Shown here: positions 1 to 55,515 of the stretch, in pieces
Layout of the letters: each line of letters opens with the position of its first letter
How positions within the stretch are numbered: the first letter of the stretch is position 1
Source of the DNA: Halorubrum sp. 48-1-W
Lineage (GTDB): Archaea; Halobacteriota; Halobacteria; Halobacteriales; Haloferacaceae
Assembly (NCBI RefSeq): GCF_003287355.1
Contig: NZ_QMIM01000005.1
Location: 1-55,515, forward strand
Length of the DNA stretch: 55,515 bases
Reading direction: 5' to 3'
The notes under the pieces: generated by a model
Databases searched by the model: none
The model's input: only the letters and a program-made list of their open reading frames with translations
What the model was told of the DNA's origin: nothing
Position numbers and translations under genes: made by a program

Positions 1-111
1 ATGGACCACTCTGGCTCAACAGGAGATCGACGAAACGTCGACACGGTGATCGACGACGTCGTCGATGGCGACCACCCTTTCCGTTACTCTGAAATATGTA
101 GATCACGTATT
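1..111. repeat. Direct repeat, copy 1 (111 bp)
   Basis: Matches 887-997 with a single difference (C87 versus A973). It may extend beyond the left edge of the window. It includes the TATA-like element GAAATATG around 91-98, which in copy 2 is the promoter of the gene at 1005. Together the two copies bracket the RHH/RelE pair. Confidence 0.95.
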
Positions 112-183
112 TCACGAGTTGGTCGCCGATCCCCGCGGCGACTGAGCGTCAGTTCTTTGAGTACCACCCGCGTACCACGACGT

Positions 184-456
184 ATGAGCACGGACGCGGG
201 CGACGATGGCGACGGAGACATGGTGAAGTTGAACGTCAAGGTGCCGAAGCGGCTTCTCGAAGAGATCGACGAACTGGCCGAGGAACTGGAGTACACCAAC
301 CGCTCGGAGTTCATCCGTGAGGTTCTGCGCGACACCACGGAGCCGATTCTGACGCCCGGTGCGCAGGAGGGCGTCTCGGAGGGTTACGCGGACGTTACAG
401 CGGGGCGGACGATGTCCACGGACGAGGCCCGCGAACGCCTCGGTATCGACGACTGA
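184..456 (+). CDS. Ribbon-helix-helix (CopG/RHH) antitoxin-type regulator
   Basis: A 90-residue protein with the RHH signature: a short basic strand (VKLNVKVPKRLL, about residues 14-25) followed by two helices ending in SEFIREVLRD. RHH proteins bind DNA as dimers and usually repress their own operon while their C-terminal tail neutralises the partner toxin. Here the C-terminal 40 residues are acidic and lack an obvious fold, as expected for a toxin-binding tail. I chose ATG 184; the longer reading frame from base 1 runs through the direct repeat and is low-complexity, and ATG 220 is a shorter alternative. The RelE-type gene follows after 10 bases, so the two form a toxin-antitoxin pair. The family call is seen in the sequence; the antitoxin role is inferred from pairing. 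Confidence 0.85.
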   Translation: MSTDAGDDGDGDMVKLNVKVPKRLLEEIDELAEELEYTNRSEFIREVLRDTTEPILTPGAQEGVSEGYADVTAGRTMSTDEARERLGIDD

Positions 457-466
457 GGGCTTAACG

Positions 467-868
467 GTGGCTCACGAGGTCGTCCTGACGGAGACGTTGG
501 TCGAAACACTGGAACAGTTCGAGACGGAGGATGCCGAGCGGATCGTCAACAAGCTGGAGGACGTCGGCGGCTTCCCGGACCATTTCCTTGACCGGTTGAA
601 GAACCATCCCGGCTACAAGCTTCGCGTCGGCGACTTCCGAGTGCTGATCGATTGGGACAAGGACAACGAGACGCTGTACGCCATCGACGCCTTCGAGCGG
701 AAGAAGGAGTACCGCGAACTCGGCAAATACCGGGAGGTATGGGGCTCGTGGCGAGATGACGAGTCGAGAGTAAAATCCACGAGCGGCGGCAGGAGAAGGC
801 GGAGATCGCAAGCCGGTACAGGGAAGCCGAGAGCAAACTGCCGGACGACCCACGGACTGGACCGGTAA
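467..868 (+). CDS. RelE/ParE-type mRNA interferase-like toxin, with abnormal C-terminus
   Basis: GTG start, 133 codons. Residues 1-97 fit the RelE/ParE fold: helices, then strands with HPGYKLRVGDFRVLIDW and YAIDAFERKKEYREL, typical of archaeal RelE-like toxins of about 90 residues. RelE toxins cleave mRNA on the ribosome. After WRDD (about residue 98) the frame becomes a Ser/Arg-rich tail unlike the family. The neighbouring frame over about 760-870 instead reads as a charged helix-like segment (ERRQEKAEIASRYREAE), which suggests a frameshift or a broken downstream coding segment. The RHH gene lies immediately upstream. The toxin core looks complete; whether the altered tail affects activity is unknown. 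Confidence 0.75.
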   Translation: MAHEVVLTETLVETLEQFETEDAERIVNKLEDVGGFPDHFLDRLKNHPGYKLRVGDFRVLIDWDKDNETLYAIDAFERKKEYRELGKYREVWGSWRDDESRVKSTSGGRRRRRSQAGTGKPRANCRTTHGLDR

Positions 869-886
869 CGCGTACGTCGAGAGGGT

Positions 887-997
887 ATGGACCACTCTGG
901 CTCAACAGGAGATCGACGAAACGTCGACACGGTGATCGACGACGTCGTCGATGGCGACCACCCTTTCCGTTAATCTGAAATATGTAGATCACGTATT
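887..997. repeat. Direct repeat, copy 2 (111 bp)
   Basis: Second copy of bases 1-111 with one mismatch. It supplies the TATA-like element at 977-984, 21-28 bases before ATG 1005, so this copy functions as the promoter of the DUF7437-type gene. The same promoter copy now also sits upstream of the RHH/RelE pair. Confidence 0.95.
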
Positions 998-1004
998 CCA
1001 TGTC

Positions 1005-1664
1005 ATGCCGGTGATCAAGGATCGGGCGACGACGGACGACGAATCTCTGGGGAACGGTGGGGCCGTCGAGGAGTATGACGACTTCCTGATCGCGGCGGAG
1101 TTGCTCAAGGATCCCCGACTCGCACGGATCTACGTCTACGTTTGCTATTTCGGACCGACGACCATCGATGTGGTCATCGACGCGTTGGAACTCAAGCGGG
1201 CGACCACCTACGAGGACGTCGAGGAGCTCGAGCGCCTCGGAGCGATCGACCGCGACGATTCAACGCGTCCACATGAGATCAGTGCGGCGGCCTTCGCTTA
1301 CGTCGATCCGGACGGGATCACCATCACGCCCACCGTGCTACACGCGATCGCACTTCGGGAGATCGACGACGACGTGGCGTACGTCTACACCCGGTACGGG
1401 GCGGGCACGGTCGCCGCGGCGGTTCGGTTCGTCGCCGAACATTACGCTGGTCGGCTCACGAAGCGGATGGTGGCCAGCGAACTCGATGTCAAGCCAGTCG
1501 AGGGAATTTCGCTCGTGAACGCGCTCGAGCGCGTAGTGGCGGTCGGAGCCGAACACGACCCCTACTTCGATCTCGTCGTGGGTGACGCCGCCGCCGACGT
1601 CGAGACGTCGGTCGACGCTACCTCGTTGACCCCTCGTTCGGGATCCACGGACGGCGATGAGTGA
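1005..1664 (+). CDS. DUF7437-type winged-helix regulator (antitoxin-like)
   Basis: A 219-residue haloarchaeal winged-helix protein. The core is LARIYVYVCYF, then TTIDVVIDALEL and TYEDVEELERLGAI (recognition helix and wing), followed by the family's C-terminal domain with YTRYGAGTVAAAVRFV and LTKRMVASELD. It is a clear paralogue of the protein encoded at 6388-6903. I chose ATG 1005, which is about 27 bases after a TATA-like element and fits a leaderless transcript; an in-frame ATG at 951 lies inside the repeated promoter. The stop overlaps the next gene, a PIN-domain protein, by 8 bases. DUF7437 with PIN is a recurrent haloarchaeal pairing, so a toxin-antitoxin role is inferred. The DUF number is from memory. 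Confidence 0.75.
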   Translation: MPVIKDRATTDDESLGNGGAVEEYDDFLIAAELLKDPRLARIYVYVCYFGPTTIDVVIDALELKRATTYEDVEELERLGAIDRDDSTRPHEISAAAFAYVDPDGITITPTVLHAIALREIDDDVAYVYTRYGAGTVAAAVRFVAEHYAGRLTKRMVASELDVKPVEGISLVNALERVVAVGAEHDPYFDLVVGDAAADVETSVDATSLTPRSGSTDGDE

Positions 1665-48370: not shown

Positions 48371-48380
48371 ATTTATAGAT
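48371..48380 (+). promoter_or_regulatory. TATA box of the tubulin-like operon
   Basis: ATTTATAGAT is centred about 31 bases before ATG 48407, giving a short or absent leader. No internal promoter is obvious in the following three genes. Confidence 0.6.
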
Positions 48381-48406: not shown

Positions 48407-51400
48407 ATGAATCTCCCAAGCAGGATATTTGCGATCGGGGGTGCTGGGAAGGCCATTACGTACGAGCTTCTGAAGGCCGATTGGGTCCAGGAGGCAGTCT
48501 TGCGACCCCGCCCGAACCCCGAGACGTTGACCGTGACCGTGATCGACACGGCGGAGGAGGAGGAGAACCGCGACCTCGAACGGATCAAGGAGATCGAACA
48601 ACAGATCCAGGAGACGAAAGACCGGCTCCGTTCGGAACACACCGGCCGACCGGGGGAGATCACGATCGAGTATCTCCCGCTCACCCGGAACATCCAGCTC
48701 CACGACCAGAACGACCTCATCGGCGAGGAGGCGGTACCGCGGATCGCCTCGGGGGTCGGCATGGAGGAGGAGAACTGGTGGCTCCAACCGGAGTTCATCA
48801 ACGAGAACCTCGATTTCGCCACCGGCGTCGTCCGGAAGCGCGGGCTGGGCAAGGGGCTCTACTACAAGGCGTACGCCGAGGACGACGACGTCCGGACGGC
48901 CATCGACCTCCCCGGCAGGGGGAAGGTCGCGGTCATCGCCGGCCTGGGCGGCGGCTCCGGCTCGGGAATCTTCATCGACCTCGTCAGACACCTCAAGCGC
49001 ACACAGCGGACCGCGGAGATCACGCTGTTCGGCGTGTTACCGAACGACGACGAGGGGGACGCGGAGAACGCGAACGCGCACGCCGCGCTCTCCGAACTCG
49101 AGTACCTCAGCCTCCAGGACGAGGACCTGTTCAAAGACCGGATCCTCATCCCGATCGACCCGACCGGGTTCGGCGGGAAGAAGGCGAACATCCTCCAGAG
49201 CTCCGACGCGCTCTTGGAGTTCGACCGGGCGGCGATCTACCTCATCGCGACGTACTACAACATGATGGACATGGAGGACCCGTTCGCGGACACGCCCTCC
49301 TACGCCCCGTTCATCATCGGGATCCCGCAGGTCCTCCGGTACAACGTCGACGCGATCCAGGACGCGAAAACCGTCACGAAGGACATCCTGAACGCCAAAC
49401 AGGACGCCCTCGAGTCGGAGGCGGACATCTACGCCGGCATCGACCGGTTCCTCTCGCGCGAGTGGAGCCCGGACGGGATGAACGGCGAGCTCCACGACTC
49501 CGACCGGACGGACCTCGAGACGCGGCTCAACAACGTGCGGTCGTTGCTCGAGCTCGACCTCTTCACCGAACTCGACTACGAGTCGGTCTCGATCTACCGA
49601 GAGATCGTCTCCGAAGCGGAGCTGGAGACGGACGACATCGTCGAGCTCATCGAGGTGATCGGCGGCTCGATCCGTGCCGGGACCGCCGAGGTGAACACCG
49701 ACGGCGAACAGTTCGTCGACAGCATCGACAAACAGCTCGGCGACGTGATCCGCGAGGAACTGAACCGGCTCGCCCACCGGAAGGACCTGCTCGTGCGGCT
49801 TCGCGCCGTCGACGACAACCGCGTCGAGAGCACGATCAGCTACCTCCTCGCCCTGGAGGACGAGGGGATAAACGCCGGCGTCCGGCTCAACCAGCTCGAG
49901 GCCAAACTCGAGGAGGCCACGGAGCGCAGAGACCGGCTTCAGGCCGACCTCGAGGACGCGGACGAGGAGCTCGAAGAACGCCGGCGCTCCCAACAGGACG
50001 AGGTCGACCGCCGCGTCGACGAGTGGGAGCGGTCGGTCCAGCCGATCTACGAGGAGTACGAGGACTGCCGGTCGATCGACGCCGAGCGGCTGGGCGACGA
50101 ACTCGAGATGGCGCTCGAGACGTACGCCCGCGAGGTGAAGAACGCGGAGACCGAAGACCAGCTCGAGGCGGTGAGCGACGGGGGAGTCCGGAGCACGCTC
50201 AACGAACTCTCCGAGGAGTTCGACCGCGTCGGGATCAACGTCTCCGACACCGAACGAGAGATAAACGCCTCGATAGCCGATCTGGCGGACGCGAAAGAGG
50301 CGTTCCTCCAGATGAACCAGGAGGAGGGAACCCTCGAGTCCATCCTCCCGTGGGACACCTCCGGCGAGGAGGAGCGCAAGCAGGCGCAGAAGAACTACCG
50401 GATGAAGCGCAACCAGCTCGACGACAACGAGGTGTTCACGATCTCCCGTGCCGGGGACTCGTTGTCGATCGAACTCGAGTTCACCGTCGACAGCCTCCTG
50501 CGGACGATAGAGGAGGAGCTCGATGCGCGCCGCCGCGACATCGTCACGGAGACCCGCGCCGAGCTCGAGACCGACAGCCCGCGGGCGCTCGAGGAGATCG
50601 AACGCCTGCTCGACTCCGGCACGAGCTTCTCCGAACTCGCCCGCGAGTTCGAGGAGCTGATCAAAGACGAGGTCATCGAGACCGACGACATCGAGCGCCG
50701 CCGCGACGAGCTCGAATCCGAACTCGAGGACGCGGAGCACAAAGCCGATCTGTACGACGGGACGGTCAGCCTCTTCGAGGAGCTCAACGGCCCGCGTGAC
50801 GCGTTCATGAACTCACAGAGCCGATACCGCGATCTCCGAGAGAACTACAACGAGAGCCGGGAGACGTCCGTCTCGACAGAGGACGAGGAGTACCACTACG
50901 TCAAGACGGTCAAACCCCACGACATCCTCCAGCTCCGCGACGACGCCGACATCGCCGAGAGCAAGCTGTTCGACGACGAGACCGAGAAACAGCGGCTCCG
51001 CGGCTCCTTAGAGGAGCTCGCGAAGAACGCGCACAACCCCAAATACACCGGGATCCGGAAACGCCGGATCAGCGGCGACCGCTCCCGGTACAACGAGATG
51101 AACGTCGTCGTCGGGGTGATGAGCCGGGCGATAAACCAGATCGGCGACGTGGCCGACCTCAAACCCGTCTTCCAGGGCGCCTACAACCTAGGTGCCGGAA
51201 GCGAGAACTTCGCGTCGTTCCCGGTCGAGGCCGGCGGGAGCTGGGACATCGGACTCGGGATCTTCATCGACGGGATCTTCCTGGACAACCTCCGCGCGGA
51301 GGTCGAAGCCGACGGCTACCAGACCGGCTACCGGGCCAAGGAGGCGTCCGACGACACCGACATCCTGGTTCACCACACGTACGGCCTCGACGAGGGGTAC

Positions 51401-51595
51401 TACGTCCGTCGGGACGAGGTGTTGAACCTCGAGAACCCCAACGACACCCAGTTCTTCCTCCGCGACGAGGGCGAGATCAAAGACGACCTCCTGGTGGAAC
51501 ACATCGAGCACGTCTCGTTCACCGGTGGGGAGGAACACGCGGACGGCACGGAGCAGGCGGACGCGCCCTCCGAGACCCTCGACGGGGGGGAGTGA
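48407..51595 (+). CDS. Tubulin-like GTPase-fold protein (Tubulin_2/FtsZ-like family) with long coiled-coil insertion
   Basis: 1062 residues from ATG 48407. The N-terminus IFAIGGAGKAITYELL and the tubulin signature loop GLGGGSGSG (residues 179-187) show an FtsZ/tubulin nucleotide-binding domain. LFGVLPNDDEGDAENANAHAAL and IIGIPQVLRYN fit the core. From about residue 430 to 800 it is mostly charged coiled coil (QLEAKLEEATERRDRLQADL), then a C-terminal globular region with MNVVVGVMSRAINQIGDVADL. It resembles the PF13809-type proteins of bacteria and archaea rather than FtsZ or CetZ. It is followed after 7 bases by a membrane GTPase gene, so it is probably a cytoplasmic polymer or ATP/GTPase coupled to a membrane partner. 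Confidence 0.85.
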   Translation: MNLPSRIFAIGGAGKAITYELLKADWVQEAVLRPRPNPETLTVTVIDTAEEEENRDLERIKEIEQQIQETKDRLRSEHTGRPGEITIEYLPLTRNIQLHDQNDLIGEEAVPRIASGVGMEEENWWLQPEFINENLDFATGVVRKRGLGKGLYYKAYAEDDDVRTAIDLPGRGKVAVIAGLGGGSGSGIFIDLVRHLKRTQRTAEITLFGVLPNDDEGDAENANAHAALSELEYLSLQDEDLFKDRILIPIDPTGFGGKKANILQSSDALLEFDRAAIYLIATYYNMMDMEDPFADTPSYAPFIIGIPQVLRYNVDAIQDAKTVTKDILNAKQDALESEADIYAGIDRFLSREWSPDGMNGELHDSDRTDLETRLNNVRSLLELDLFTELDYESVSIYREIVSEAELETDDIVELIEVIGGSIRAGTAEVNTDGEQFVDSIDKQLGDVIREELNRLAHRKDLLVRLRAVDDNRVESTISYLLALEDEGINAGVRLNQLEAKLEEATERRDRLQADLEDADEELEERRRSQQDEVDRRVDEWERSVQPIYEEYEDCRSIDAERLGDELEMALETYAREVKNAETEDQLEAVSDGGVRSTLNELSEEFDRVGINVSDTEREINASIADLADAKEAFLQMNQEEGTLESILPWDTSGEEERKQAQKNYRMKRNQLDDNEVFTISRAGDSLSIELEFTVDSLLRTIEEELDARRRDIVTETRAELETDSPRALEEIERLLDSGTSFSELAREFEELIKDEVIETDDIERRRDELESELEDAEHKADLYDGTVSLFEELNGPRDAFMNSQSRYRDLRENYNESRETSVSTEDEEYHYVKTVKPHDILQLRDDADIAESKLFDDETEKQRLRGSLEELAKNAHNPKYTGIRKRRISGDRSRYNEMNVVVGVMSRAINQIGDVADLKPVFQGAYNLGAGSENFASFPVEAGGSWDIGLGIFIDGIFLDNLRAEVEADGYQTGYRAKEASDDTDILVHHTYGLDEGYYVRRDEVLNLENPNDTQFFLRDEGEIKDDLLVEHIEHVSFTGGEEHADGTEQADAPSETLDGGE

Positions 51596-51602
51596 TCGAT
51601 AG

Positions 51603-53045
51603 ATGACGACGATCGGTGAGTTCCTCGAGGAAAACGGCGAGAAGGTCTTTCTCGTCGTCTACTTCGCCGTGATGGTGATCGTCGCCGGACCGCTCTTCCT
51701 CTCGCTCGGGGAGGCGTGGCAGGCGTCGGACATCGTCAGGCCGGCGATCCTCGCGTTGAACCCGCTTTTGGGCGTTACCCTCGAACAGTTCTCCGCGCTA
51801 ATGTTCGGGCTCTATCTCGGGTTGTTGGTCCTCGTGACCCTCGATCCGAAGAAACGGGTCCAGGGGATCCTGCTGTGGCTGGGAACCGTCTCCGCGCTCG
51901 TCGGCCTGCTGTCGATCGGCCTGTTCATCCCGAACATCGACTTCGCGGCGAACGTCGTGTGGGTCCTCGCCGGGTTCGTCGGCGGCGGACTCGTCGGCGG
52001 CGGTCCCAAGCTCCTGGAGGTCCGGACGGCGTCGGCCCTCGAGTTCAGGCGCTCCGCGACGCTCCTGTTCTACCTGATCAGCGCGATCGTCGTCGGCGGG
52101 CTGATCGAGTTCCACCTCAACCTGCCGCAGGTCCTCCAGGTCACTGCCGACACGGTTCGGGTCGTGCCGCCGGCGCCGGACGTGAGCGTCGAGTGGTCCG
52201 GGATCGGCGTGAACACGCTCATGGCGGCGGTGTTCGTGGTCACGCTGCGCCGGTTCGTGACGTACGACGCCTCCGAGAACTTCTTCGTGTTGGGCCCGCA
52301 GGGGTCGGGGAAGTCGCTCTTCCTCGTCGGCAAGTACCTGGCCGCCCTCGACGAGGCCGTGGGCCGTGAGGCCGACACGCCGTTGAACCCGAGCAGCGAC
52401 CTCATGGAGCTGGTCGGCTCGCTCGACGCGGCGTCGAAGGACACCGGCTGGAAGCTCGACGCGACCGGTCAGACCGACGTCGAGGACCTGAACTTCAACT
52501 ACGTCGACGGCCGGGTGTTCCCGAAGAACATCGAGCTGTCGAGCCTCGACTACGCGGGCGAGTACCTCGAACGGCTCCCGAACGCGCTGATGAGCCCGGA
52601 CGACGAGATCGACAACTCGACGCTCCGGCTCCTCGCCCAGCGGGTCCGAGATGCCAACACGCTGATCCTGATCATCGACGTCGAGCGGTACCACAACAAC
52701 GAGCCGCTGGAGATAGAGCCGTACTTCGACATCCTGGACGTCGCCTCGAACAAGGACGTACTGCTCGTCGCGACGAAGTGTGACATCCTCGCCGAGGAGT
52801 TCCGCGACAAGCAGGCGCTCGAGGCCCACCAGTACTTCGACGAGTTCCGGGAGTTCGTGAGCGAGACGCTGATCGAGAACAACCAGACGGTTCGGACGCT
52901 CGTACAGGACACCTCCGGGTCGGACATCCACCCGGTGTACTACCAGACGACGACCGACGAGAACGGGGAACGCGTCCCGATGCGCGACCGCAACGGGAAC
53001 GTGATGACCGTCGGGTTCGACGAACTCCTCGAAAAGATGGGGTGA
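51603..53045 (+). CDS. Membrane-anchored GTPase with six predicted spans
   Basis: 480 residues. The first 215 residues hold about six hydrophobic spans. A P-loop GTPase domain follows with G1 VLGPQGSGKSLF (residues 231-238), G3-like LDYAG (316-319) and G4 VATKCDIL (391-394). TKCD is the guanine-specificity motif, so GTP rather than ATP is likely. LILIIDVERYH precedes G4, as in Ras-like and SRP-receptor-beta-like GTPases. It lies between the tubulin-like gene and a single-span repeat protein, with 7- and 6-base gaps. This suggests one complex at the membrane. Regulators of the GTPase are not visible. Confidence 0.82.
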   Translation: MTTIGEFLEENGEKVFLVVYFAVMVIVAGPLFLSLGEAWQASDIVRPAILALNPLLGVTLEQFSALMFGLYLGLLVLVTLDPKKRVQGILLWLGTVSALVGLLSIGLFIPNIDFAANVVWVLAGFVGGGLVGGGPKLLEVRTASALEFRRSATLLFYLISAIVVGGLIEFHLNLPQVLQVTADTVRVVPPAPDVSVEWSGIGVNTLMAAVFVVTLRRFVTYDASENFFVLGPQGSGKSLFLVGKYLAALDEAVGREADTPLNPSSDLMELVGSLDAASKDTGWKLDATGQTDVEDLNFNYVDGRVFPKNIELSSLDYAGEYLERLPNALMSPDDEIDNSTLRLLAQRVRDANTLILIIDVERYHNNEPLEIEPYFDILDVASNKDVLLVATKCDILAEEFRDKQALEAHQYFDEFREFVSETLIENNQTVRTLVQDTSGSDIHPVYYQTTTDENGERVPMRDRNGNVMTVGFDELLEKMG

Positions 53046-53051
53046 ACACGG

Positions 53052-54767
53052 ATGCCATCACTACGCGTATACGACACGAGAGGAAACGAACACTCGCCGA
53101 CGGGCGGCGGTAGCCGATCGAACGAACGGGTGAAGAAGGACCTGGGTCCCGCCGGCGTGAGACTCGCGATCGAGGCGGGGCGTGAGCGCAAGTTCACGAT
53201 GTTCTTCCGGGCGCGGGAGACCCGGAACGCCCGCGCCGAACAGTTCTACGCGGTGTACTCGACGCGGAACGGCTCGATGCGGGAGTTCATGGACGCGCTT
53301 CGCGACCGGATCGAAGACGAGTGGGGGTACACGATAGACGACTCCGCCGACGACATGAGCGTCTTCCGGGCGCTCGACGCCGGTCAAACGTCGCTCCCGG
53401 GAAGCGACCAGGACCGCGCGATACTCGAGGAGCTGATCGGGTCGCGGCAGGGCGGGACCGTCGGCGTGCGCGACGCCGAGAGCGCGCTCGGGCTCGTCAA
53501 CGAGTTCATGGGCACGTACAACCGCGCCGCCGTCGCCGACTCGCCGGAGTCGAACGCCCTGTCGGAGTTCGACCTGGTCGTCGCCCCGAACGGGTCGAGC
53601 GGTATCGTTCCGGTCGGCGACACCGAAGACCGGTGGGAGTCGACGAAGGAGTCGATCCGGAGCCGGCTCATCGACGCGGAGATCGCCTCGATCAACGAGT
53701 CGGTCCAGACGCTCTCGCGGGAGCACGGCCTCTCGAGTTCCGAGATCCGGAGGCGGGTCAGCCAGCGTGTCCCGGCGTTGAGCGCGCCGGACACCGGCGG
53801 GTCGACGGCCGACCGACTCGCGAGTTCGGGCTCCTCGAGCCGGTTCGACATGGCGGAGATCGGCAAGTACGTCGCCATCGGCGCGCTCGTACTGCTCGTG
53901 TTGATCGCGGGCTTCTTCGGCGCCTCCGCGTTCGGGGTGATCGGCGGCAGTGGCGGCGACGACGGCGGCGCCGCGGCCGCGTCGATCAACGGGACCGTGG
54001 TCGACGCCGACGGCGAGCCGATCGGTTCGGGGGTGGAGGTGACCATCGAACGGGTCGCTGACGACAACGCGACCGAGAGCGACGGCGGGATGAACACGAC
54101 GACAGACGGCGGGAGCTTCGCCTTCGAGAACGTCTCGACCGGAACCTACGAGATCTCCGCCGAGTCGACGGACGCCTTCGAGTACGGTGCCCAGGAGATC
54201 GAGGTCGACGAGAACGGAACCGACGGGGTCGAGGTCGCCCCGGCCAGCGCGACCGTGAACGGAGCGGTCGTCGACGCGGAGACCGGCGAGCCGCTCTCGA
54301 CCGACGGCGACGGGGAGGTCGACGCCTCGATCGAACTCGTCGACGGGAACGGCGAGTCCGTGGCGACAGCGACGGGCGGCAGTTACGAGTTCTCCGTCGA
54401 CGACCTCGACGGGAGCTACACGGTGACCGCCGAGGCCGACGGCTACGAGTCGGCCGATCACACCGTCGACTCGTTCGGCGATCAGGCCGACATCGAACTC
54501 GAGTCAACGGGAGTGACGCTCTCGGGGGAAGTCACCTCGAACGGAACCGTCGTCTCGGATGCAACGGTCGAGGTGACGGTCGTAGCTGGCGACGTGCGGA
54601 CGGTGACAACCGGCTCGTTCGGAAACTACGAAATAACTGGACTCCCCCCGGGTAGCGACTATCGTGTCGAAGTGAATGCCGAAGGATACGAGACGAAAGC
54701 AGAGACCATCGACCTCAGTGGGGAGACCCAAGAGAAAGACTTCGATCTAGATCCGTCCGAGTCGTAG
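53052..54767 (+). CDS. Single-span membrane protein with carboxypeptidase-regulatory-like repeats
   Basis: 571 residues. Residues 1-250 are a soluble domain of unknown type (FTMFFRARETRNARAEQFY, MREFMDALRDRIEDEWGY). One membrane span is at about 272-298, and then an external part with three to four beta-sandwich repeats of the carboxypeptidase-regulatory/Ig type (NGTVVDADGEPI, VNGAVVDAETGEPL, LSGEVTSNGTVVSD). It has N-x-S/T sites and many Asp/Glu/Gly residues. It may link the cytoplasmic tubulin-like/GTPase layer to the cell surface. The segment 54212-54502 is repeated exactly at the window end. Confidence 0.78.
   Translation: MPSLRVYDTRGNEHSPTGGGSRSNERVKKDLGPAGVRLAIEAGRERKFTMFFRARETRNARAEQFYAVYSTRNGSMREFMDALRDRIEDEWGYTIDDSADDMSVFRALDAGQTSLPGSDQDRAILEELIGSRQGGTVGVRDAESALGLVNEFMGTYNRAAVADSPESNALSEFDLVVAPNGSSGIVPVGDTEDRWESTKESIRSRLIDAEIASINESVQTLSREHGLSSSEIRRRVSQRVPALSAPDTGGSTADRLASSGSSSRFDMAEIGKYVAIGALVLLVLIAGFFGASAFGVIGGSGGDDGGAAAASINGTVVDADGEPIGSGVEVTIERVADDNATESDGGMNTTTDGGSFAFENVSTGTYEISAESTDAFEYGAQEIEVDENGTDGVEVAPASATVNGAVVDAETGEPLSTDGDGEVDASIELVDGNGESVATATGGSYEFSVDDLDGSYTVTAEADGYESADHTVDSFGDQADIELESTGVTLSGEVTSNGTVVSDATVEVTVVAGDVRTVTTGSFGNYEITGLPPGSDYRVEVNAEGYETKAETIDLSGETQEKDFDLDPSES
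54212..54502. repeat. Direct repeat, copy 1 (291 bp or more)
   Basis: Identical over all 291 readable bases to 55225-55515; the second copy is cut by the window edge. It lies inside the repeat-rich part of the 53052 gene, and both copies have the same codon phase. Confidence 0.97.
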
Positions 54768-54769
54768 TT

Positions 54770-55515
54770 ATGCGCCCCGACCGGACGCTCTCTGGAACCG
54801 ATCTGAGGATAACCGTCGGTGAACGAGCCGGGACGGAAACACACTGGGAGACGTTCGACGGGCGAACCGCCGACGGCGACGCGGTCGCCGTCAGATCACT
54901 TTGTGGGACGGCCCCAGAGGACGAGTACGACAGGTTCGACTCGCTCGCGACGCAATGGGGAAACATCTCGGGTCGCGAAACCGCCCGAACGCTTCTCGAC
55001 TGGGGAACCGACCCCGAGCCGTGGGTCGCCGTTGAGTACGTTCCCGGCGAACTCGAGACGCTCGCGACCGGCGGGAGCGTCGAGGCCGCGCTCGATTGCG
55101 ACCTCGCGACGCGTGCCGATCTTCTCGCGGACGTCTGTGAGGCGATCCGGAGCTACGGTCGCTACGGATCGACCCCGTATCACCTCCGGATCGGTCCGGA
55201 ATCAGTAGTCTTTCGTGAGGATCCGAACGGAACCGACGGGGTCGAGGTCGCCCCGGCCAGCGCGACCGTGAACGGAGCGGTCGTCGACGCGGAGACCGGC
55301 GAGCCGCTCTCGACCGACGGCGACGGGGAGGTCGACGCCTCGATCGAACTCGTCGACGGGAACGGCGAGTCCGTGGCGACAGCGACGGGCGGCAGTTACG
55401 AGTTCTCCGTCGACGACCTCGACGGGAGCTACACGGTGACCGCCGAGGCCGACGGCTACGAGTCGGCCGATCACACCGTCGACTCGTTCGGCGATCAGGC
55501 CGACATCGAACTCGA
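54770..55515 (+). CDS. Protein-kinase-like ORF joined in frame to a copy of the preceding gene (partial)
   Basis: ATG 54770, 2 bases after the previous stop, open to the window end (248 codons). Residues 1-151 resemble the small lobe and catalytic loop of a Ser/Thr kinase: DAVAVRSL (Lys position is Arg), PWVAVEYVPGELE (hinge) and YHLRIGPESVVF, where HRDLKPEN is expected. Key catalytic residues are therefore altered, so a pseudokinase is possible. From residue 152 the sequence is an exact in-frame copy of the 54212-54502 repeat and the kinase DFG part is missing. Either a real fusion or an assembly join; the contig may end here. Confidence 0.6.
   Translation, partial: MRPDRTLSGTDLRITVGERAGTETHWETFDGRTADGDAVAVRSLCGTAPEDEYDRFDSLATQWGNISGRETARTLLDWGTDPEPWVAVEYVPGELETLATGGSVEAALDCDLATRADLLADVCEAIRSYGRYGSTPYHLRIGPESVVFREDPNGTDGVEVAPASATVNGAVVDAETGEPLSTDGDGEVDASIELVDGNGESVATATGGSYEFSVDDLDGSYTVTAEADGYESADHTVDSFGDQADIEL
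55225..55515. repeat. Direct repeat, copy 2 (truncated by the window edge)
   Basis: Exact copy of 54212-54502, offset 1013 bases. The join to unique kinase-like sequence is at the word GAACGG. Its position at the very end of the window hints at an assembly break in a repeat. Confidence 0.97.

Follow-up and report, generated by a model that had tools for sequence, protein, structure and literature searches.

A conserved FtsZl1-type operon of a tubulin-superfamily protein, a membrane GTPase and receptor-like proteins in Halorubrum sp. 48-1-W

Introduction

Why does a haloarchaeon encode, almost without spacing between the genes, a tubulin-like protein of more than 1000 amino acids, a membrane-spanning GTPase, a receptor-like membrane protein and a kinase-like protein? 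This question is raised by the last 7 kb of contig NZ_QMIM01000005.1 of Halorubrum sp. 48-1-W. The window analysed here is this entire contig (55,515 bp), one of 69 in the genome, and its four genes of interest are referred to as Z, G, C and K. Our analysis indicates that the operon is real and conserved, and that it adds one more member to the FtsZl1 systems instead of representing a new kind of system. With regard to its function we favour, with a probability of roughly one half, a receptor-gated membrane GTPase that would control a membrane-proximal scaffold of the tubulin family.

48407..51595, plus strand: gene Z, FtsZl1-type tubulin-superfamily protein, 1062 amino acids (PF13809, PDB profile matches, AlphaFold2 model)
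51603..53045, plus strand: gene G, P-loop GTPase domain C-terminal to about five membrane spans, 480 amino acids (hydrophobic spans, GTPase motifs)
53052..54767, plus strand: gene C, cytoplasmic domain (residues 1 to about 268), membrane span (about 270-293) and CarboxypepD_reg exterior, 571 amino acids
54770..55224, plus strand: genuine part of gene K, the first 152 codons of a kinase-like receptor and predicted pseudokinase (identity to paralogue and relatives, missing catalytic residues)

A sequence-only reading of the contig knew of no experimental description of the gene set in haloarchaea. This holds, in that no experimental study of the FtsZl1 gene set was found in the open-access literature, most subscription papers lying outside it. 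The system itself, however, had already been predicted by Makarova and Koonin in 2010 (PMC2875224), and the window locus is a homologue of their founding example. According to the accessible text of that paper, the family was named FtsZl1 starting from Halorhabdus utahensis Huta_2050-2056, which comprises, among other genes, three kinases and an FtsZ-like protein of 1051 amino acids, and its partners are membrane-associated GTPases (in archaea) and protein kinases. The window shares the N-terminal FtsZ-like domain with its GGGTG(S/T)G loop (GLGGGSGSG in Z), the extended coiled coil that leads into a C-terminal domain, the operon with a diverged membrane-associated P-loop GTPase (GxxxxGKS, DxxG and TKxD in G) and the association with Ser/Thr kinases, K lying downstream of C. 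A von Willebrand factor A (vWA) domain protein is described for the majority of FtsZl1 operons; none was recognised at the window locus, and the 25 Pfam families that occur most often in neighbouring genes do not include vWA. In the same accessible text the T6-H7 region was not located, no relation was found for the C-terminal domain, and protein C, in contrast to the present analysis, was not singled out.

The present analysis adds a predicted complete tubulin fold of Z, which extends to the C-terminal domain overlooked in 2010 and is interrupted by a helical arm of about 500 residues. Furthermore, it defines a Z-G-C core, in which the cytoplasmic domain of C is constant and its exterior varies between lineages, and reveals a pair of live and dead GTPases in related loci, a misassembled K without kinase catalytic residues, and G-C pairs surviving in some genomes that lack Z. 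Within the tubulin superfamily, FtsZl1 ranks among the most divergent branches. The Z-G-C core, the GTPase pair and the changing exteriors offer concrete partners to examine in haloarchaea.

Results and discussion

Gene order and conservation of the locus

The four genes are consecutive open reading frames (ORFs) on the same strand with intergenic gaps of 7, 6 and 2 bases, in agreement with the sequence-only reading, which had described four such genes with gaps of 2-7 bases. Its characterisation of the first three products was likewise borne out: a 1062-residue tubulin-like protein (PF13809 above cut-off, predicted tubulin fold), a polytopic GTPase with G1 and G4 motifs (about five spans, GPQGSGKS and TKCD, to which DYAGE can be added) and a single-span protein with exterior repeats (three CarboxypepD_reg stretches). 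Z, G and C are intact, and K is genuine only to about position 55224. Because a TATA-like element precedes the Z start codon by about 30 nucleotides and the preceding gene lies on the opposite strand, a single transcription unit is plausible. A search of NCBIfam gave no useful family for the proteins of the locus.

48372..48377, plus strand: TATA-like TTTATA about 30 nucleotides 5' of the Z start codon, possible promoter from which the operon would be transcribed with almost no leader (sequence, archaeal promoter spacing)

Co-location of homologues in other genomes had been set beforehand as a test of this gene set, and tandem loci were found. In two overlapping sets of type-A haloarchaeal loci the order Z-G-C is kept throughout, in 27 of 27 loci and in 26 of 26 loci from named genomes, the latter belonging to Halorubrum and neighbouring genera. 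One locus (L057) shows the order K-Z-G-C and a Z that is 45% identical to that of the window. At a presence threshold of E < 1e-20, weaker matches being ordinary FtsZ/CetZ proteins, Z was detected in 46 of the 391 genomes sampled from the class and is thus patchily distributed. G was detected in 51 genomes. Since these include 43 of the 46 genomes with Z and only 8 of the 345 without it, the linkage of Z and G is not due to chance. Distances within the families were also correlated (r of 0.95 for Z-G, 0.91 for Z-C and 0.90 for G-C), with permutations reaching at most 0.5.

A complete Z-G-C set is encoded on plasmid pMETEV01 of the halophilic methanogen Methanohalobium evestigatum (L150), which suggests transfer between halophiles. 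Four haloarchaeal genomes (L131-L134) contain G-C pairs without Z. As three of these four G copies nest within the type-A G tree, Z was probably lost in the respective genomes. No relatives of Z were found in viral contigs and phages. Judged by a Tubulin_2 search, Haloferax volcanii lacks the family, which may explain why it has not been met in the standard model.

Predicted fold of protein Z

Z matches the Tubulin_2 family (PF13809) with 39.5 bits (cut-off 27), and a profile built from 39 homologues matched CetZ, TubZ, FtsZ and tubulin structures in the PDB via the T4/T5 region. An AlphaFold2 model based on a 39-row alignment reached a mean predicted local distance difference test score (pLDDT) of 84.7. 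In this model the tubulin fold expected for the product is present: VIA-align superimposed it on Haloferax CetZ1, the closest solved structure, over 318 of 330 residues (Z-score 23.6, root mean square deviation 3.8 A, model range 2..980), and on tubulins over about 350-365 residues (range 4..1020). As the middle of the protein is a helical arm, we infer that the aligned residues stem from the N- and C-terminal parts together, and thus that Z is modelled as a complete two-domain tubulin fold with an inserted arm. The following borders of domains and arm are approximate estimates.

48407..49342, plus strand: N-terminal GTPase half, including an H7-like helix (residues 267-284) and a strand (302-312) (AlphaFold2, structural alignment, hhalign register)
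48941..48967, plus strand: T4 GTP-binding signature loop GLGGGSGSG, residues 179-187 (invariant glycines, hhalign with CetZ)
49343..50896, plus strand: inserted helical arm, about residues 313-830, about 500 residues (AlphaFold2 helices, heptad signal, low conservation)
51074..51421, plus strand: C-terminal tubulin-fold core, about residues 890-1005 (invariant G956, D960, N961, G997 and R1002, structural alignment)

In the T4 loop, which hhalign aligned with CetZ (E 5e-10), G181-G183, G185 and G187 are invariant in 24 Z homologues. The reading of the middle part as an inserted arm is independently backed by two observations: conservation among divergent homologues is lower in the middle (19%) than in the flanking parts (33% and 27%), and a global profile alignment with hhalign placed T6 and H7 of Z (residues about 244-290) on CetZ. 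The isolated C-terminal domain gave no significant hhalign match to CetZ (probability 0.3%), so that the assignment of this domain derives from structure. The arm had been described as a giant coiled coil, which was upheld in part. A heptad signal above that of shuffled sequences was obtained for the helices 490-555 and within 741-817, and more weakly for 314-352, and for no other helices of Z; the region is therefore better described as two heptad-rich helices flanking a helical tip than as one coil.

Z shares its fold and the GTP-binding T4/T5 loops with haloarchaeal CetZ and FtsZ. Together with CetZ1 being the closest solved structure, this could point to an ordinary cytoskeleton of cell shape or division, i.e. 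a CetZ/FtsZ paralogue that adjoins membrane genes by chance. We regard this as very improbable, since Z is tightly linked to G and C and is absent from most haloarchaea, which keep FtsZ/CetZ. Unlike these proteins, it also carries an extra helical stretch of about 500 residues, is accompanied by conserved membrane partners, has a patchy distribution and shows no clear T7 motif.

Regarding the latter, EDPFAD at residues 293-298 is a candidate T7 segment, which is not kept in divergent homologues. This would be in line with a Z that does not polymerise but serves as an adaptor, monomeric or dimeric and dependent on GTP, whose catalytic loop is degenerate and whose arms bridge G to other partners. 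Makarova and Koonin, in the accessible text, left filament formation open and raised the non-polymerising option themselves. Nevertheless, it is the complete two-domain fold with which characterised members of the superfamily build protofilaments, and we consider the adaptor rather unlikely. The predicted fold with its inserted arm makes the filament question directly testable.

Halorubrum aquaticum (L104) and H. rubrum (L105) contain second, shortened Z-like ORFs of about 560 amino acids that are 44% identical to the N-terminal part of Z; the full locus is present in these genomes as well.

Membrane GTPase G and its relation to DO-GTPases

G consists of about five hydrophobic spans followed by a GTPase domain, the motifs of which are intact in all type-A copies.

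52293..52316, plus strand: G1/P-loop, GPQGSGKS
52548..52562, plus strand: G3-like motif, DYAGE (DxxG then Glu)
52770..52784, plus strand: G4, ATKCD (TKCD motif)

The G3-like motif reads DYAGE or DYPGE in nearly all P-loop-bearing copies, with D, Q or N in a few. A profile of G gave marginal GTPase matches in the PDB. The closest Pfam GTPase families to relatives of G are DO-GTPase2 and DO-GTPase1, with matches in 11 (best E 0.0014) and 2 (best E 0.00044) of 30 homologues, respectively, all of them below the Pfam cut-off. For G of the window, no DO-GTPase match is among the Pfam matches listed, and a PF19993 search of its own genome yielded short fragments only and nothing over the cut-off. The G profile also weakly matched a DO-GTPase2 protein in a Gemmataceae genome (E 7e-5).

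ARAGORN predicted a tRNA-Arg within gene G (52472-52558, minus strand), which lacked support from Rfam and was taken as spurious.

In divergent relatives of the window locus, the GTPase occurs with and without a P-loop.

L069-L075, L107-L119, L141, L142: divergent loci in which the G beside Z is P-loop-less and a P-loop-bearing copy usually lies close by

The P-loop has been lost from the Z-adjacent G in 14 distinct divergent loci, 12 of which encode a P-loop-bearing paralogue nearby. In the G tree the dead copies stand apart on one side, and their sub-groups resemble those of the live copies. This pattern suggests that an ancient duplication gave rise to a pair of pseudo-GTPase and GTPase.

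Such features recall the mostly bacterial systems of Kaur et al. 2020 (PMC7159879), in which DO-GTPases are combined with tubulins and exterior beta-sandwich proteins; haloarchaea are not discussed in that paper. Like the window locus, these systems comprise a tubulin-fold protein with a coiled coil, a membrane-spanning GTPase with a Glu after DxxG, GTPases that are sometimes paired, exterior beta-sandwich proteins and, in some cases, kinases. The Glu after DxxG in G may correspond to the conserved Walker B Glu of that paper. In contrast to these systems, G remains below the Pfam DO-GTPase cut-offs and neither GAP1 nor zinc ribbons were recognised; C gave no Pfam match to GAP1 at E up to 1, the presence of a GAP1 model in the library being unchecked. 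Hence, judged from sequence profiles, membership of the DO-GTPases fails at the Pfam cut-off, while the resemblance in logic is clear.

This resemblance raises the option of a conflict or defence system akin to those of Kaur et al., in which an invader would be sensed by the exterior or by C, with Z as the multimerising effector. The DO-GTPase families as closest Pfam relatives, the Gemmataceae match, the N-terminal spans, the Glu after DxxG, the paired GTPases in divergent loci and the patchy distribution of Z (46/391 genomes) all agree with it. However, the DO-GTPase matches stay below the cut-off, no copies were found in phages or viral contigs, and PADLOC returned no match for the four window proteins. 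PADLOC matches among the neighbouring genes were mostly to generic kinase models and were rejected as evidence for defence. A role in defence thus appears unlikely to us.

Receptor-like protein C

Protein C of the window has one membrane span. The lack of positive charges after the span suggests, at the level of the sequence, a topology with the N-terminus inside and the C-terminus outside. The N-terminal cytoplasmic domain is kept in all type-A loci and the exterior varies by lineage: CarboxypepD_reg repeats are present in 10 of 24 C relatives, and the others have a different exterior or little of it.

This variability bears on the original proposal by Makarova and Koonin of a machine for membrane remodelling or vesicle formation. 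Z and G would then deform the membrane, and C and K would be cargo or anchors and not sensors. The proposal is the genome-context inference of the 2010 paper, and it fits the fact that all partners of Z are membrane proteins. Yet the exteriors of C and K, being variable, are more reminiscent of recognition modules, and according to the accessible text the idea had already been questioned by a reviewer of that paper. We therefore see it as possible, but on the unlikely side.

The model of the cytoplasmic part of C (pLDDT 82.7) gave no strong match in the PDB (Foldseek E at least 0.04), and a profile search against the PDB returned nothing significant. For residues 1-100 the best structural matches were mostly to longin-type domains, as found in regulators of GTPases (Mon1-Ccz1, DENND1, Sec22b, Ykt6 and Vamp7), with Z-scores of at most 5.1. 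A longin-type fold of the modelled domain may be taken as a lead only.

At residues of about 26-35 of C (about 53127-53155), KKDLGPAG stands in place of KDLFYDG in close relatives, with one extra residue, which is possibly a compensated frameshift or a sequencing error.

Gene K and the contig end

The fourth ORF had been read as kinase-like. This applies to its first 152 codons or so, which appear catalytically dead, and not to its end.

55225..55515, strand not given: contig-end duplication, assembly artefact, joined to gene K (exact copy of 54212-54502)

The final 291 bases repeat 54212-54502 of gene C with 100% identity; they are joined in frame to K and stop where the contig ends. No third near-identical copy of this stretch was found in the genome, nor was the remainder of the K kinase domain found elsewhere in it, paralogues excepted. 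For these reasons the contig end is most likely a chimeric join. K is 58% identical to a paralogue on contig C49 of the same genome, and 82% identical to a complete 728-amino-acid relative from Halorubrum cibi (L083), with a good match only up to residue 156. A genuine fusion of kinase and ectodomain was rejected, since the added bases exactly repeat a stretch of gene C and run out at the contig end; the join also skips the kinase C-lobe and the membrane span of the relatives. The chimeric ORF would mislead automatic annotation.

In the window K, VAVR replaces VAIK and HLRIGPES replaces HRDxKxxN. It thus has no beta-3 Lys, HRD Asp or metal-binding Asn, and the DFG region falls past the contig end. 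K is therefore predicted to be a catalytically dead pseudokinase; a few distant relatives retain HLDLKPDN. The complete relatives are single-span receptors with a degenerate kinase domain and exteriors of CarboxypepD_reg repeats or of periplasmic-binding type, the exterior thereby resembling that of C. A K-family gene lies near 11 of the 27 type-A loci, and Pkinase matches also occur among the neighbours.

A possible mechanism

That the locus encodes a membrane-tethered tubulin-family module, as first put forward by the sequence-only reading, is well supported by the co-location and the tubulin fold; the signalling from cell surface to polymer that it also proposed is more tentative. How its parts could work together may be outlined as follows. 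C, and K where present, would detect something outside the cell or in its envelope, and their cytoplasmic parts would determine which nucleotide G carries. Once loaded with GTP, G could recruit Z to, or nucleate it at, the cytoplasmic side of the membrane, and Z may there form a polymer or lattice with its arms holding partners at a distance. The output might be remodelling of the envelope or membrane or a stress response. In the divergent loci, the P-loop-less G beside Z would probably be a docking subunit and the P-loop-bearing copy the switch. Directly seen or strongly supported are the linkage of the genes, the predicted fold of Z, the GTPase motifs of G, the topology class of C and the degeneration of K. 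Within this scheme we infer polymerisation, the direction of signalling, the order from receptors (C and K) through switch (G) to scaffold (Z), and the biological role.

We favour the receptor-gated scaffold because of the linkage of Z, G and C, the co-occurrence of Z and G, the correlated distances, the tubulin fold and the motifs of G, and furthermore because of the live and dead G pairs, the variable exterior of C over a conserved cytoplasmic domain and the architectures of K. Several points weigh against it. Contacts among Z, G, C and K are presumed, and the distance correlation also arises from vertical inheritance alone. The existence of G-C pairs without Z means that Z is not the sole output, and the kinase gene is variable, being found near only the 11 type-A loci mentioned above. 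Moreover, a canonical T7 catalytic motif (NxDxxD) is not assignable in Z, and the view of C as a GTPase regulator depends on weak structural matches (best Z-score 5.1).

It may further be speculated that the module is a prokaryotic chain for signalling across the membrane, put together from parts known from eukaryotes: that C is a receptor with a longin/DENN-like cytoplasmic domain regulating G, that G assembles the arm-bearing tubulin Z, and that active and pseudo-GTPase form the switch in divergent loci, which would be analogous in logic to heterodimeric GTPase platforms. We hold this detailed version to be quite doubtful.

Neighbouring genes

Among the neighbours of type-A loci (L037-L064), pyrroloquinoline quinone (PQQ) beta-propeller proteins are frequent, and an MIT-domain profile matches three neighbours (best E 6.6e-6). 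The neighbours of divergent loci (L065-L076) include matches to HSP70, GrpE and DnaJ, which may represent an ordinary chaperone operon or the HSP70 association of Kaur et al.

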